A stretch of 64,000 nt of DNA from the NCBI GenBank assembly GCA_013306675.1, contig JABLUY010000166.1, positions 1 through 64,000 of the forward strand, in the 5' to 3' direction. The notes below the pieces were generated by a model. It was given only the letters and a program-made list of their open reading frames with translations. It had not been told where the DNA came from and did no database searches. The DNA is from Thraustochytrium sp. TN22 (Eukaryota; Sar; Bigyra; Thraustochytrida; Thraustochytriidae). Shown one piece after another: positions 21,183 to 45,463 of this stretch (position 1 is the first letter of the stretch; each line of letters begins with the position of its first letter). The position numbers were made by a program, and so were the translations under genes.

Positions 21183-24052
21183 CTAGCTAAAGGTGGTCTT
21201 TTGGTTCTTGGGAGGCTTGACGCTGGGCTGAGCGGCGTTGTCGATGTGGCAGGCCGTGACGGTGACGGGGGAGGGCGGGCGGGCGCGCACGGGGGTGCGG
21301 GTGCCTGGGCCGCGCGAGGCGTCGACGGAGGCGAGAAAGGCGACGACCTCGGCATGACCGTGGTTGACGGCGTCGTCGAGCGGGGTGTGGCCCCAGCGGT
21401 CAACGGAGTTCATGCTTGCGCCGGCCTCGGCAAGGATCTTGAGGAAGTCGAGGTTGTTCTCGGAGGCGGCGAGGTGCGCGGCAGCGCGGCCGTCGTAGTC
21501 GGTGGTGTCGAGCGAGACGCCCTCAGAGACGCATAGCTTGAGCGCCTTGATGTCGCCGCGCGTGGCGGCCTCGACGAGGCGCTGGCAGCGGCGCTGCAGG
21601 TAAAAGTCCTCGGAGAAGTCGCGCACGTCTAGCTTCTTCGAGACGCCGCGCAGCAGGCTGTAGCGGTGAATGGTGTACTGCTCCTGGAGCAGCTTGCAGA
21701 ACTGGATGCCGCGCGCGGAGTTGCCGAGCTTGTCGAGTCGGGGCGACCAGGTGCAGATGCCCATGACGTTGGGCACGACGATGAGCAGCGCGCCGGCGAC
21801 ACCGGACTTGGCAGGGACGCCGATGGAGAACTGCCACTCGCCGGCGTAGTCGTACATGCCGGAGGAGGCGGTGAGCGAGAGGCAGTTGCGCACGGTCTCG
21901 GCGCGAAAGACGCGCTTCTGCGTGATGGGGTTGACGCCGCCGTTGGCCAGCGTGGCGGCGACCACCGAGAGCGACTCGGCGGTGGCCTCGAGGCTGCACA
22001 TTTGGAAGTAGAACTCGAGCACTTCCTCGAGCGCGTGCGTGGAGTTGACGTGCGGCGGGAAGGCGCCCTTCTCCTTCATGAGGTAGCCGAGGCAGCGATT
22101 GCGGTCTGCGGTGAACATCTCGCTGAGGAAGGTCTCGTTCGAGTACCCCGGCTCCTCGCCGCCGTTGAGCTCCTTCCAAACCGAGGTGACGTAGTCGAAG
22201 CGGTCCTCGGAGCTCACCTCGGGCAGAATGAGCGAGGCCGTCATGATGGCGCCCGCGTTAATGAGCGGGTTGTGCGGCAGGCCGTCCTTGTTGAGGGTGA
22301 GCTCGTTGAAGTTGCGGCCGCTCGGCTCGTGCGCCACGTGCCGGTGGATGACGCCCTCGCCCACAAGCTCGTGTGCAATGCAGTACGAGATGGGCTTGCT
22401 GCAGCTCTGCACGCAGAACGGGTCTCGCGCATCGCCGTACGAGAAGCGCTGCGCGTCCACCGAGCAGACGGCGATGCCGAACTTCTCCGGGTCCTGCCGC
22501 GCGAGCTGTGGGATGTAGTCCGCCACCTTGCCCTCGCGGTGATCCTTGGCGCGCTCGTAAACCTTGATCATGTTGCGCGAGAAGCCGCGAAAGTCGCCGA
22601 TCACGGCGCGTCCCTGCAGCACGCGCTCGATGTAGGGAAACTTCTGGCAGTAGTACTGCAGTCGGCGCGCTGTGAGCTCGCGTCCGCAGCCGGCGCCTGC
22701 AGCCGCAGCGGCGTCGCCGTCGGCGACTGGCCCATTGCCCTTTCCGCCAGCCGCCGCCGCCGCCTTGATGGCGCTGAGGACCGGGGGGGGCGAGCTTGGA
22801 GCGACGCCGGTGGCGGCCGGCGGGGGAGGCGTCGGAGGCGTCCGGCCCATCATCACGCGCGAACTCGCGTGCCAGGTCGTTGTAGCGCTCCTCTGTGCCG
22901 ATGCCCTGGAGGTGCAGCGCCTGAAGGAGGTCCAGCTCGGTCGCGCTGCGGCTGTGCTCGACGCCGGCCTCGTCCGTGTAGATCTGCGCGAGGGAATTGA
23001 GGATCTGCTCCATGCGCGCGCGAGTGTCCGCGTCAGGGACGGCGGGTTTGAATGCGCGCGGCGCTTCAATACCGCGCAGCAGCAAGTCGGCCAAGGGGCC
23101 TATGAAGTTTGAGCTCTCGGAGCTGACATCGCCCACTTCGCTCGCGGCGATATCCCCGGTGAAGTCTTCCGTGTCCGTCCGCGTGGAGCCTGGTTCGTCG
23201 TCGATGCTGGCCGAGGCCGGGCGCATGCCCTGGCGCTGCGTCATGGCGTCCATGAGCATGTGATAGGCGCGAAGCCCGTTGGACAGCTGCGCGCGCGATG
23301 GGCTAGGCGTCATGGTCTCGGTGAGCCGCGGCGAAGGCGGCGTGTTGGTGCTCTCATTGCTGGCGCGGGCCTCGAGGCGATCGGCGGGTGAGACACTGGC
23401 GTCCACATCGTTCTCAATGTCGTCGTCGTCGTTGTCGCCGTCGCCGTCGTCCTCATCCTCGTCGCGGATGGCGCCCTGGACAGCCGACGGCGGAAGCGGC
23501 GGCGGCGCGGCGGCACTGACGATCAAGTCGCGGTCGGGTTCTGACGCTGAGTCGCAGGTGCTGCCCAGGGAGTCGTCGTCGCCAAAGTCCGTGCCGGCGC
23601 CGAGCTTCTCCAGCACATGGTAGTCACGCGGCGAGCGGCACTGCGCGTAGTCGGGGAGTGCCGAGAGGTAGGCGGCGACGTCGGCGTGGCCCTCGGCGCG
23701 CGCATCGTCGAGTGGTGTGTTACCGTAGCGGTCCCGAGCGGTCGTATCGGCGCCGAAGAGGCAGAGGAGCTTCACACAGTCCAGGTGGCCCTCGGATGCG
23801 GCCAGGTGCAGGCAAGTGCGCAGGTCGTAGTCGGGCAGATTGACGTCGACGCCGCGCGCCACGACGCGACGAAGGTGCGCGGCGTCACCGCGCGCCACGC
23901 AGTAGAAGAGCTCGTCGTTGATGATCTCGGCCCCGCGCGCAAGACTGGCGGACTGCGCCGCATCCGGCTGAACGGCACGTAGCGCCTGCGAGGACATGCT
24001 TACGCGCAGGCGCGACGACGACGATGAGGTCGGCTGCTGTTGCTGCTGTTGC

Positions 24053-24083
<31 letters not shown>

Positions 24084-25818
24084 GCTGCTGCTGCTGCTGT
24101 CTGGGTCTCGGCTGCGCCAGGAAGCGCGGCGAGAGGCGCGGCGAGAGGCTCGGCGGGGGCGGCACCGCGTAATGGCCGTTCCCGTTCTCCGGCGACGGCA
24201 AGGCGAAAATGCCGGCGCCCTCATCGTAGGAGTCGACGCGCGGCAGGTCTGGAATACCAGGCGCTAGAAACTCGCCCTGATCGCTGTACTTGTCCTCTGC
24301 ATCGGTCTCGGGCGGGGCGGCGCTATCCTCGTCCTCGTCCTCGTCGTCCTCGTCCTCTTCGTCCTCTTCGTCCTCCTCACTCAGGCTCTCCTCGAGGCTG
24401 CTGCGGCGGCGCTGGCGCTGGAGGTCGCGACGCTCCTGCTCGGCGCGGCGGCGGGTGGCGGCCTCGGCGGCCTTTGCAGCGTCCGCGTCCGCCTCACACG
24501 CGGTCTTGCCCTTGGCGGTGCCGGCCTCGAGGACCGCGTCGCCGAGCGAGTCGCGTGACTCGGGCGGGCCGCGAAAGATCTCGCGGTACACGTGGGCGTC
24601 CTGCACGACGAAGGAGTCGAAGGTGTGGAGACGGAACTGGTTGACGAACTGCTCCGCGAAGGCCAGGCCGTACTTGCTGATCTCGGCTTCGGGCTCGAGG
24701 CGCGGCGAGTAGGTGCAAAAGCCGCCGAGGTTGGGGATGACGACCATGGTGAAGCCCGAGACGGAGCTCTTGCACGGGTAGCCGATGGTGAACTGGAGGG
24801 AGCCGCTGTACGGCCCCATGCCGCAGGAAGACATCATGCTGAGGCACATTTGCACGTGCTCCGCGGAGAAGACGCGCGTGTTGGTGGTGGGGCAGACGCC
24901 GCCGCCAGCGAGCGTGGCCGCGAAGACGGCGAGCTGCTGCGTGCTGGCCTCGATGCAGCAGTTCATAAAGTAAAAGTCCATGGTGTCCTCGAGGCTGGCC
25001 GAGGCCTCGCGCGGGAAGCTGTTGTGGTCCTTGAGCATGTAGGCCAGGCAGTAGGCGTGATTGGCGTGGCGGCGCTGCGAGAGGTAGTGCGAATTGGCAA
25101 AGGACGCCTCTGCGTGGCCCGTGGCGCGCTTCCAGATGGAGCGCACGTAGTTGAAGCGGTCTGCCAGGCGGTCCGAGGTCTTGATGAGCGCCGCCAGCAT
25201 GATGAGGCCCGAGTCGACGAACGGGTTGAACGGCAGGTTGGCGCTGTCCAGCGAGAGGTCGCGCACGCTGCGGCCGGAGGGCTCGCGGCCGATGTAGCTG
25301 TGCACGCGCTCGACGCCGTTGAGCTCGAGCGCCGTACAGTACAAGAGCGGCGCGCACATCTCCGTGACGGTGAAGCGCGCCTCGTAGTCGCCGCGATTCC
25401 ACTGCTGGCCGTGCATGCTGCAGAAGGAAGCGGCCACGCGCTCCGGGTCCTCGCGCGCCAGCTTGGGCGTGCGCGTGCTCACCTTGCCTGAGTGCCACGC
25501 CTTGCCGCGCACCGTTTGCTCGAAGCACGCGTTGAGTTGCTCTGCGGCCTGCTGGAAGTTCGGGATCACCAGGTTGCCCGTCAGCGCCGTCTCCACCAGC
25601 GCGTTGTGCTTCGCCAGCGCCATGAGCTCGCCTAGCGAGATCTCCTCCTTGCCCAGGCACGCCCTGATGGCGCTGTCGCTGCTCAGCCGCTCATCGTCGA
25701 TGCTCAGCCCCGTGCGCTCCAGCAGCGCCAGCAGCTCGCGCGTCGACACTGCGCCGCGCCCGTCCTCCAGCAGCTCCGCCAGCGCCTCGGACGCCCCGCC
25801 CAGCGACACCTGGCTCAT
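21183..25818 (-). CDS. Double glutaminase-ankyrin protein, first domain catalytically dead (frame break)
   Basis: Two frames overlap and together cover about 1,540 residues. The order is: EF-hand-like N-terminal helix region (about 10-80); glutaminase domain 1 (about 85-400); acidic DEEDEEDEDDEDED tract; poly-Gln near 24036-24100; ankyrin repeats; a long acidic linker; a second N-terminal region (DLLQALHLQGIGTEERY); glutaminase domain 2; ankyrin repeats; basic tail. Domain 2 keeps the serine-lysine pair of glutaminases (QSCSKPISY), the tyrosines of DYIPQL and SGMYDY, and the NAGAI, SE and RN positions. Domain 1 has TEMCAP at the Ser-Lys site (E153, A156) and changes at the others. Glutaminase makes glutamate and ammonia. 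The frame changes at eight Cs (22783-22790, minus strand), after which the second frame continues domain 2. Confidence 0.85.
22783..22790 (-). other. C8 homopolymer at the glutaminase frame break
   Basis: On the coding strand eight Cs lie exactly where the upstream frame (ending SKLAPPGPQRHQ) must give way to the downstream frame (SPPPVLSAIKA). A one-base length error in such a run is a common assembly fault, so the gene may be intact in the organism. Confidence 0.7.
24036..24100 (-). repeat. Coding CAA/CAG repeat (poly-Gln)
   Basis: About twenty consecutive Gln codons, mostly CAA in the middle and CAG at the edges, lie between glutaminase domain 1 and the first ankyrin block. It is probably a length-variable disordered linker. 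Confidence 0.9.
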
Positions 25819-43216: not shown

Positions 43217-45463
43217 ATGTCGGGCGGCAGCGAGGTCGTAGTGCTTGGCGTGATCGGCGGGTCCGGCCTGCTCAAGAGCGACATCTTCTCGCGCGACGTG
43301 CGCGAGGAGGTGGTGTCCACGGCGTTTGGCGAGGTGAAGTTGGCGCGCAAGGAGCTGAGCCCGCAGCTGCACATGGTGTTTGCGCAGCGCCACGCGAGCG
43401 ACCCCGAGGTGGCGTACAGCCCGCCGCACCTGGTGAACTACCGCGCGGTGCTGGCGGCGCTCAAGGAGACGGCGCACGCCGTGGTGGCCATCTGCTCGGT
43501 GGGCTCGCTGCGGCCCAACGTGCAGCCCGGCACGCTGGTTGTTCCTGACGACTTCTTTTGCCCGTGGCGGCTCATGACGTCCTTCGACGACGCGCGCGGG
43601 CACTGCATCCCGGGTTTCAACGAGGCGCTGCGGCAGGAGATTCTCGCCGCGCTCACGCAGGACGGCGCGCCGGAGCACCGGATGCTGGACGGCGGCGTGT
43701 ACGTAAACAGCCTGGGCCCGCGCTTCGAGACCAAGGCGGAGATCAAGTGGATGAGTCAATGCGGCGATCTCATCGGCATGACGCTGGCCAACGAGGCTGG
43801 CCTGGCCATGGAGCTCGGCTTGCCGCTGGCCAGCCTGTGCATGATCGACAACATGGCCAACGGGCTTGGCCCGCGGCTCTCGCTGGAGGCCTTTCACGAG
43901 CTGCAGCGCCAGAATCAGGCGCACGTGGAGCAGGCCGTGCACCTCATCCTGAGTCACTTCGAGGGCAACCCGGACGTGCTGCGGCGCATCGCTGGCGGCG
44001 AGGGTGATGGCGCTGCCAAGGGCGAGGCCAAGGGCGAGGATGGCGTCAAGAACGGGGCTTCGGAGGCCCAGGCCGAGGCGGATGAGGTCATCCACGCCAT
44101 GAGCGTCGTGACCGTGGACGCGGAGAACCGCGTGCTGCCGGGCCACGCCGTGGCGCTGCGCGACGGCCGCATCGTGGACATTTTGCCGTCCGAGGAGGCG
44201 GACGCCAAGTACGGCGCGGTGTCCAGCAAGGCCACCAAGATCGTGCGGCGCCCCGAGTGCGTTCTCATGCCGGGCCTCATCAACGCGCACACGCACTCGC
44301 CCATGAACCTGCTCAAGGGCTTCAGCGACGATCTGCCGCTCTCCACGTGGCTGCAGGAGAAGATCTGGCCCGTCGAGGTGCGTTGCGTGTGCGGCAACTT
44401 CTCGCGCGAGGGCTCGCGCCTGGCCATCGCCGAGATGCTGCGCGGCGGCACCACCTGCTTCTCCGACATGTACTTCTTCCCGGAGTCCACGGCCGAGGCC
44501 GTCGAGGAGACCGGCATTCGCGCCTGCATTGGCTGCATCATCATCGAATTCCCGTCCAACTATGCCGGCGGCGCCGACGACTACTTGGCCAAGGGCCGCA
44601 AGATGCTCGCCGACTTTGCCGGTCGCACCGACCGCCTCACCTTTAGCGTCGCGCCGCACAGCGTCTATGCGGTCTCCGAGGAGCACATTCTCGAGGCCCG
44701 CAAGCTGGCGCGTGACAACAAGATTCCCTTCCACATCCACCTCTGCGAGACCACGGGCGAGGTCGAGGACTCGGAGCGCGGTGACCGGACTTCACAGTTC
44801 TGTCACCAGACCGACAAGAAGGTGCGCCCGCTGCGCAACCTCTTTGACATTGGCGTCGTCGACGACCGCTTTGTTGCCGCGCACATGGTGCACCTCACCG
44901 ACGATGAGATCGCCGAGTATGCCAAGTGCGGCGCGCACGTCGTGCACTGCCCCACGTCCAACCTCAAGCTCGCCAGCGGCTTTTGCCCCGTGCAGAAGCT
45001 CCTCGACGCCGGTGTCAACGTCGCGCTCGGTACCGACGGCGCCTCCTCCAACAACTCGCTCGACATGTTCCAGGAGATGAAGCTCGCCGCCATCCTCGCC
45101 AAGGGCGTCGCCAAGGAGCCCTGCGCCGTGCCCGCGCCGCAGGCGCTGCGCATGGCCACCATCAACGGCGCCAAGGCGCTCGGCATCGACGACAAGGTCG
45201 GCTCCATCGAGGTCGGCAAGCAAGCTGATCTCGTCCTCATCAACTTCGCGGAGGTGTCCTGCCTCCCCGCCTTTGACGTAGTCAGCCACCTCGTCTACTC
45301 TTGCAGCCGCCATCAGGTCTGCGACGTCTACGTTGCTGGCAAGTGCCTCGTTCGCGACCACGAGCTCCTCTCCATCGACGCCGCCCAGCTGCGCGCCGAT
45401 GCCGAGAAGTGGCACGAGAAGGTTCTTGAGACCGACGCCAGCCACGATGGCAGCTACAAGTGA
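43217..45463 (+). CDS. Fused methylthio-nucleoside phosphorylase and MTA/SAH deaminase
   Basis: The product is predicted to have 748 residues in two enzymes. Residues 1-265 are a MTAP/PNP-family phosphorylase: phosphate loop GVIGGSGL, FAQRHASDP, NYRAVL, and GMTLANEAGLAMELGLP. At the purine-recognition loop, where human MTAP has Asp220 and Asp222, an ungapped alignment gives Asn212 and Ala214 (CMIDNMANG), which suits a 6-oxopurine. Residues 290-748 are an amidohydrolase of the MTA/SAH deaminase type: metal ligands HTHSPMNLL (about 357), FHIHLCETTGE (about 505), and GTDGASSNNSLDMF (about 605). Deamination of methylthioadenosine would give methylthioinosine, which the N-terminal half could split into hypoxanthine and methylthioribose-1-phosphate. 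Domain calls are firm; the combined pathway is inference. An acidic/Lys linker joins them. Confidence 0.88.
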   Translation: MSGGSEVVVLGVIGGSGLLKSDIFSRDVREEVVSTAFGEVKLARKELSPQLHMVFAQRHASDPEVAYSPPHLVNYRAVLAALKETAHAVVAICSVGSLRPNVQPGTLVVPDDFFCPWRLMTSFDDARGHCIPGFNEALRQEILAALTQDGAPEHRMLDGGVYVNSLGPRFETKAEIKWMSQCGDLIGMTLANEAGLAMELGLPLASLCMIDNMANGLGPRLSLEAFHELQRQNQAHVEQAVHLILSHFEGNPDVLRRIAGGEGDGAAKGEAKGEDGVKNGASEAQAEADEVIHAMSVVTVDAENRVLPGHAVALRDGRIVDILPSEEADAKYGAVSSKATKIVRRPECVLMPGLINAHTHSPMNLLKGFSDDLPLSTWLQEKIWPVEVRCVCGNFSREGSRLAIAEMLRGGTTCFSDMYFFPESTAEAVEETGIRACIGCIIIEFPSNYAGGADDYLAKGRKMLADFAGRTDRLTFSVAPHSVYAVSEEHILEARKLARDNKIPFHIHLCETTGEVEDSERGDRTSQFCHQTDKKVRPLRNLFDIGVVDDRFVAAHMVHLTDDEIAEYAKCGAHVVHCPTSNLKLASGFCPVQKLLDAGVNVALGTDGASSNNSLDMFQEMKLAAILAKGVAKEPCAVPAPQALRMATINGAKALGIDDKVGSIEVGKQADLVLINFAEVSCLPAFDVVSHLVYSCSRHQVCDVYVAGKCLVRDHELLSIDAAQLRADAEKWHEKVLETDASHDGSYK

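Follow-up and report, generated by a model that had tools for sequence, protein, structure and literature searches.

A thraustochytrid gene joining an MTAP-family phosphorylase to an MTA-deaminase-type amidohydrolase: a predicted one-protein route through methylthioinosine

The window analysed here, a stretch of 64,000 nucleotides from contig JABLUY010000166.1 of Thraustochytrium sp. TN22, contains a gene in which a phosphorylase domain of the MTAP family (N-half) is joined to an amidohydrolase domain of the MTA deaminase type (C-half). The fused protein is probably a bifunctional salvage enzyme that, as judged from its sequence, would convert 5'-methylthioadenosine (MTA) through 5'-methylthioinosine (MTI) to hypoxanthine and 5-methylthioribose-1-phosphate, standing in for MTA phosphorylase (MTAP). 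The C-half would remove the 6-amino group from MTA, yielding MTI and ammonia, and the N-half would then use phosphate to split MTI into the two end products. We infer both activities, the order of the steps and MTA as the main substrate, as well as any advantage conferred by the linkage of the two domains. The features of the gene are as follows.

43217..45463, forward strand: the fused gene, 748 aa, stop codon included in the coordinates; an open frame starting with ATG, with both domains in frame
43217..43990, forward strand: the N-half (aa 1-258), a phosphorylase of the MTAP/MTIP fold and a member of the DN clade described below
43727..43729, forward strand: codon of Glu171, at the site of human MTAP Ser178 (column 171 of the comparison rows)
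43847..43864, forward strand: purine loop D211-N212-M213-A214-N215-G216, located from the sequence and the alignments
43991..44065, forward strand: linker between the two domain matches, about aa 259-283 (~25 residues), with a high content of Gly, Glu, Lys and Ala
44066..45433, forward strand: the C-half (aa 284-739), an amidohydrolase of the MTA deaminase type according to the NF006549 score, the match to 4f0r and the tree
44288..44296, forward strand: the His358-Thr-His360 motif, by position in the sequence
44738..44749, forward strand: His508 to Glu511, within HIHLCE (aa 506-511), by position in the sequence
45035..45037, forward strand: Asp607 in GTDGASSN (motif starting at aa 605), by position in the sequence

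The initial annotation placed the phosphorylase and the deaminase in one frame, and this is borne out by a single ATG-started frame of 748 codons without internal stops in which both Pfam domains are found, PNP_UDP_1 at aa 69-242 (8.6e-25) and Amidohydro_1 at aa 349-709 (3.1e-76). The frame is single-copy in the host assembly (37.9 Mb in 453 contigs) as indicated by an assembly-wide search. The chance that a missed stop or an assembly error merged two genes appears negligible considering the continuity of this frame, the in-frame linker and the high GC3 of both halves (0.93 in the N-half and 0.91 in the C-half; the linker is at 0.76 and the kinesin frame of the window at 0.84). Contamination is unlikely as well because the fused gene sits between eukaryotic genes. 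Eight other frames of the window were scanned with Pfam, and five of these have matches whereas three have none; the matched frames encode a kinesin on one side of the fused gene, an HVSL-domain protein, presumably of the USB1 type, on the other side, a RabGAP-TBC protein, a glutaminase-domain protein with ankyrin repeats, and an NYD-SP28_assoc protein. The glutaminase domain and the ankyrin repeats are combined in a 1186-aa frame on the reverse strand (window positions 22258-25818).

The C-half scores 574.3 bits against NF006549 (PRK09045, 'TRZ/ATZ family hydrolase'), above the cut-off of 540, and 332 bits against the 5'-deoxyadenosine deaminase model, below the cut-off of 522. We take the NF006549 group to include the MTA deaminase of Pseudomonas aeruginosa, and in the genome of this bacterium a gene named TRZ/ATZ hydrolase adjoins mtnA. 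Among solved structures, the best match of the C-half is 4f0r, named MTA/SAH deaminase (2.3e-124). The motifs HTH, HIHLCE and GTDGASSN are all present; His358-Thr-His360 is presumably the first metal-binding motif, the segment from His508 to Glu511 presumably provides a metal ligand and the catalytic Glu, and Asp607 is presumably the catalytic Asp. An 11-residue insertion (window positions 44780-44812, about aa 522-532) follows the HIHLCETTGEVEDS stretch and is absent from the bacterial deaminase rows compared.

The N-half is a whole-domain structural match to the MTAP/MTIP fold, and human MTAP and the MTI phosphorylase (MTIP) of P. aeruginosa (3ozb) are tied in structural Z. With 150.4 bits against the MTAP model TIGR01694 and 128.7 bits against the MTIP model NF006599, the N-half remains below both NCBIfam cut-offs (274.85 and 223, respectively), the MTAP model giving the higher of the two scores. 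In the phmmer alignment with 3ozb, Asn212 is opposite Asn and Ala214 is opposite Ala. Human MTAP numbering was reached via a bacterial MTAP (L091), which is gapless against human MTAP at the purine loop, and this alignment puts Asn212 and Ala214 at the sites of Asp220 and Asp222. Thus, the replacement of these two aspartates, proposed in the initial annotation, is confirmed by both alignments. A second pocket position agrees with Asn212, namely, Glu171 at the site of human MTAP Ser178. Among the 119 comparison rows, which are related and hence not independent, Glu is found at position 171 in all 108 rows with Asn212 (the PNP of the host itself, 66 DN-type rows and 41 rows of other Asn types), whereas in the 11 rows with Asp at position 212 this column contains Ser (10/11) or Ala (1/11). 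In trimeric PNPs, Glu201 and Asn243 bind 6-oxopurines, and the combination of Glu171 and Asn212 would likewise suit a 6-oxopurine. The residue argument that the changed loop favours such a base therefore stands as a prediction, strengthened by Glu171, which the earlier proposal did not include. The active-site residues listed for human MTAP include S178, T219, D220 and D222 (available part of PMC5738077). Instead of the Ser178/Asp220/Asp222 set, the N-half contains Glu171, Asn212 and Ala214, the same three pocket residues as 3ozb; the pocket further differs from that of human MTAP at position 211, with Asp in the DN clade instead of Thr219. The distinction between Glu171 with Asn212 and Ser with Asp provides a sequence rule that should tell deamination-first systems from direct phosphorolysis of MTA.

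The Glu/Asn pair is common to the PNP of the host, which would be compatible with a general inosine phosphorylase in the N-half and a fusion that handles adenosine. Such a function is highly improbable, given that an inosine/guanosine-type PNP is encoded elsewhere in the host genome (323 bits; cut-off 218) and that the C-half matches MTA-deaminase-type amidohydrolases. An N-half that works as an MTAP, directly on MTA, together with a C-half that deaminates another compound, such as SAH, is also quite improbable: the higher score of the MTAP model and the tie in structural Z are in line with this possibility, but the Ser and both Asp of MTAP are all replaced, both family scores are below the cut-offs, and the MTAPs are placed apart in the phylogenetic tree.

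The N-half set consisted of 119 rows after seven duplicate or near-copy loci were dropped at building; 23 of these rows (10 Verrucomicrobiota rows of DN type, 7 other Asn-type rows and 6 odd ones, namely L008, L009, L010, L104, L107 and L113) were removed by hand, and the tree of the remaining 96 rows was built without the loop columns 205-220 and midpoint-rooted. The N-half belongs to a 57-row clade (support 100/99), here the DN clade, in which all rows have DN or EN loops. Adjoining this clade (95/96) are 14 MTIP rows of the Pseudomonadota type including 3ozb; they form a clade of their own (100/99), and the N-half is outside it. The nearest kin of the N-half (98/88) are 14 rows, all of them from genomes sampled in the phylum of Luteibacter (G021; Pseudomonadota). 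The eight MTAP-type rows (six reference MTAPs plus two additional rows of Asp type) form a separate group (100/97), and a constrained topology that forces the N-half together with them is rejected (AU p = 0.004). Thus, the N-terminal domain does not cluster with MTAPs; such clustering was the outcome that the initial annotation had named as fatal to its proposal. Thirteen other Asn-type rows, mostly from Bacillota, as well as four rows with the loop VNFAEG are found on the MTAP side of the midpoint root; the position of these 13 rows indicates that Asn alone does not define a clade. In the comparison of the domains with MTIP and MTAP, as suggested in the initial annotation, the pocket is MTIP-like and the N-half is not among the MTAPs, but neither by score nor by tree is it a classical MTIP, and it is assigned instead to the separate DN clade. 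Identification of the N-half as an MTAP was rejected on the basis of the cut-off, the pocket residues and the tree, and identification as a classical MTIP on the basis of the cut-off and the tree. We know of no characterised enzyme of the DN clade.

In the tree of the C-half (58 rows; partial or weak rows with less than 150 bits and L009, L059, L073 and L086 were omitted), the C-half is the outermost row in a group with 13 Pseudomonas-type deaminases including those of P. aeruginosa and Xanthomonas (100/99). The 33 deaminases from DN-clade genomes, of which 32 adjoin a phosphorylase frame and one (L143) is distant from it, make up a separate clade (100/100), and joining the C-half to these 33 is rejected (AU p = 5e-46; the group was named after the tree had been seen). 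Given that the C-half goes with the Pseudomonas-type deaminases and not with the deaminases that neighbour the DN-type phosphorylases, the two halves are of different origin within the present sampling. The uptake of an existing bacterial gene pair as a unit is rejected for the C-half by the tree and the AU test within the sampled rows. As far as sampled, two bacterial genes of different lineages appear to have been fused, giving a combination that in prokaryotes exists as neighbouring genes; unsampled eukaryotes could hide intermediates.

The genomic neighbourhood of the prokaryotic relatives was assessed in a scan of species genomes that gave at least 595 matching stretches, 590 of them relatives. 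The best 80 of these 590, selected independently of neighbourhood, were used: 50 loci of DN type and 30 of other Asn types, with two loci in each class having less than 700 bases downstream. Within the best 80, 19 of the 50 DN-type loci have a deaminase-like frame immediately downstream in the same orientation, compared to none of the 30 others (Fisher p = 2.9e-5, kinship ignored); the remaining 31 DN-type loci have no adjacent deaminase, two of these for want of sequence. In the same set, a deaminase-like frame is present at a distance of 0.8-3 kb downstream in 8 of the 30 non-DN loci (same strand) and on the opposite strand in a ninth, so that a deaminase close by is no distinguishing mark of the DN clade. 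The eight same-strand cases are Bacillota loci (L022, L024, L059, L066, L073, L079, L085 and L086) that encode a non-DN, Asn-type phosphorylase. In the 299-genome sample, an adjacent deaminase is present for 34 of the 40 N-half matches listed (hand count) and is not adjacent for the other six, with the deaminase of one of these (G321) about 31.5 kb away. The adjacent phosphorylase-deaminase pair occurs in archaea and in several bacterial MAGs, and wherever the frames of such pairs were read, they are separate genes. Loci of Opitutaceae and other Verrucomicrobiota (L042-L071) encode DN-type phosphorylases, mostly with the loop DNYANG, and no adjacent deaminase. Altogether, these observations point to an unnamed phosphorylase clade, often with a deaminase-like neighbour gene.

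No true prokaryotic fusion, i.e., a stop-free match over both halves, is present among the matches listed for 23, 299 and 200 genomes, with few candidates per genome scored and with many long frames, e.g., those in G338, G561, G589 and G783, left out of this check. The nearest approach seen is the pair in G713 (L127/L147), where the match extends over aa 9-706 and includes an internal TGA; both frames are in one register and are split by that single codon. In G001 and G007, the frame length was suggestive of a fusion, but stops separate the two frames. Seven frames of 563 to 986 aa from the N-half matches listed in 297 genomes were read, with frames of ~340-410 aa mostly left out; four of the seven have a radical-SAM part ahead of the phosphorylase, and in the other three, the remainder is unlike the C-half. 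The radical-SAM frames (L105, L106, L108 and L109 in G066, G161, G276 and G187, respectively, all genomes sampled in the phylum of G004, 'Deltaproteobacteria' L014) contain an MTAP-family phosphorylase with the loop VNFAEG and are followed by an amidohydrolase frame. The first part of L109 is MqnC (470.7 bits; cut-off 428.1), and the other three radical-SAM frames read alike; the amidohydrolase that follows in L109 is closest to aminofutalosine deaminase (174 bits, below the cut-off of 320). With these frames, futalosine hydrolase may be replaced by a phosphorolytic reaction. No relative was found in the viral contigs searched; in phages, six records show partial matches of the MTAP/PNP type.

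The host assembly contains PF01048 in three places, which correspond to the fused gene, a uridine phosphorylase and the inosine/guanosine-type PNP. This search of the assembly revealed no stand-alone MTAP, and the only other match to the fused protein is a guanine deaminase. MtnA, which could take on the 5-methylthioribose-1-phosphate, is present (391.6 bits; cut-off 279). There is also an APRT-like gene (150 bits, below the cut-off of 185.85), so that release of adenine is conceivable, and one contig carries two HGPRT-like stretches that are below the cut-off, one of them with internal stops. ARD (PF03079) and MtnC (TIGR01691) gave no match in the assembly in a six-frame search that is blind to introns; later methionine salvage may be absent or its genes may be split by introns. 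PF00596 matches in two places, and the one that was partly read does not resemble MtnB (28.8 bits; cut-off 137.05). The role of the fused protein could possibly be recovery of purines, or disposal of MTA or 5'-deoxyadenosine.

The usual regeneration of methionine needs both ARD and MtnC, and the lack of matches to either lends some support to a fusion that mainly serves 5'-deoxyadenosine, which radical SAM enzymes release as a by-product, or mixed 5'-deoxynucleosides, in the same order of deamination and phosphorolysis. The adjacent pairs in archaea and bacterial MAGs are also compatible with this possibility, as is the precedent reported for Methanocaldococcus jannaschii, where a 5'-deoxyadenosine deaminase is accompanied by a promiscuous MtiP that acts on MTI and 5'-deoxyinosine (PMC6302742, available part). 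Such a main function is nevertheless rather unlikely because the C-half passes the cut-off of the Pseudomonas-type model (574 bits) and fails that of the 5'-deoxyadenosine deaminase model (332 versus 522). With MTA as the presumed main substrate, 5'-deoxyadenosine would be a plausible co-substrate of the fused enzyme.

The proposed reaction order is that of P. aeruginosa, where MTA is deaminated to MTI, which then undergoes phosphorolysis (PMC6302742, in the part available). The likeness extends to the proteins, with the C-half in one clade with the TRZ/ATZ hydrolase of this bacterium and the N-half sharing the loop residues of 3ozb, whereas the differences are that P. aeruginosa employs two separate proteins and that the thraustochytrid N-half lies beside, not among, the MTIPs. 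The M. jannaschii enzymes likewise deaminate and then phosphorolyse but are separate, and MtiP has broad substrates (same part of PMC6302742). Among eukaryotes, Plasmodium runs an MTI route as well, although with two proteins, ADA and a hexameric PNP (PMC3885546, as far as the available text goes). FAMIN/LACC1 also combines deaminase and phosphorylase activities in one protein, but in a single DUF152 domain as opposed to the two unrelated domains of the fused protein (available text of PMC6978800). Other fusions in methionine salvage are known from protists, namely, MTNAK and MTNBD of Tetrahymena, with mtnAK found in some stramenopiles too; these, however, cover other steps of the pathway, and the word deaminase does not occur in the main text of the respective report (PMC2759508, available part). 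According to the initial annotation, no eukaryotic fusion of this kind is known to have been described; no earlier report was found among the titles and abstract starts listed for open-access papers, which is weak evidence of absence. The claim has to be narrowed nonetheless: because ADA and PNP of Plasmodium already constitute a eukaryotic MTI route (PMC3885546, same text), only the fusion and the MTAP-fold version of this route look new.

The pocket residues, the trees and the gene neighbourhood support the route proposed in the initial annotation. The fused protein would replace MTAP with two halves that come from two bacterial lineages and are joined by a linker. On balance, a scenario is moderately favoured in which a eukaryote swapped MTAP for one chimeric protein of dual bacterial ancestry, re-creating the gene neighbourhood of the DN clade, and in which this clade, with members in Pseudomonadota, Myxococcota, Gemmatimonadota, Tharpellota and archaea, represents a third type of enzyme within the MTAP family, one devoted to 5'-deoxynucleosides that have been deaminated. 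A genome of this sort could be annotated with an MTAP that it does not have. The phosphorylase-deaminase pairing would then have been rebuilt in a eukaryote from other parts.
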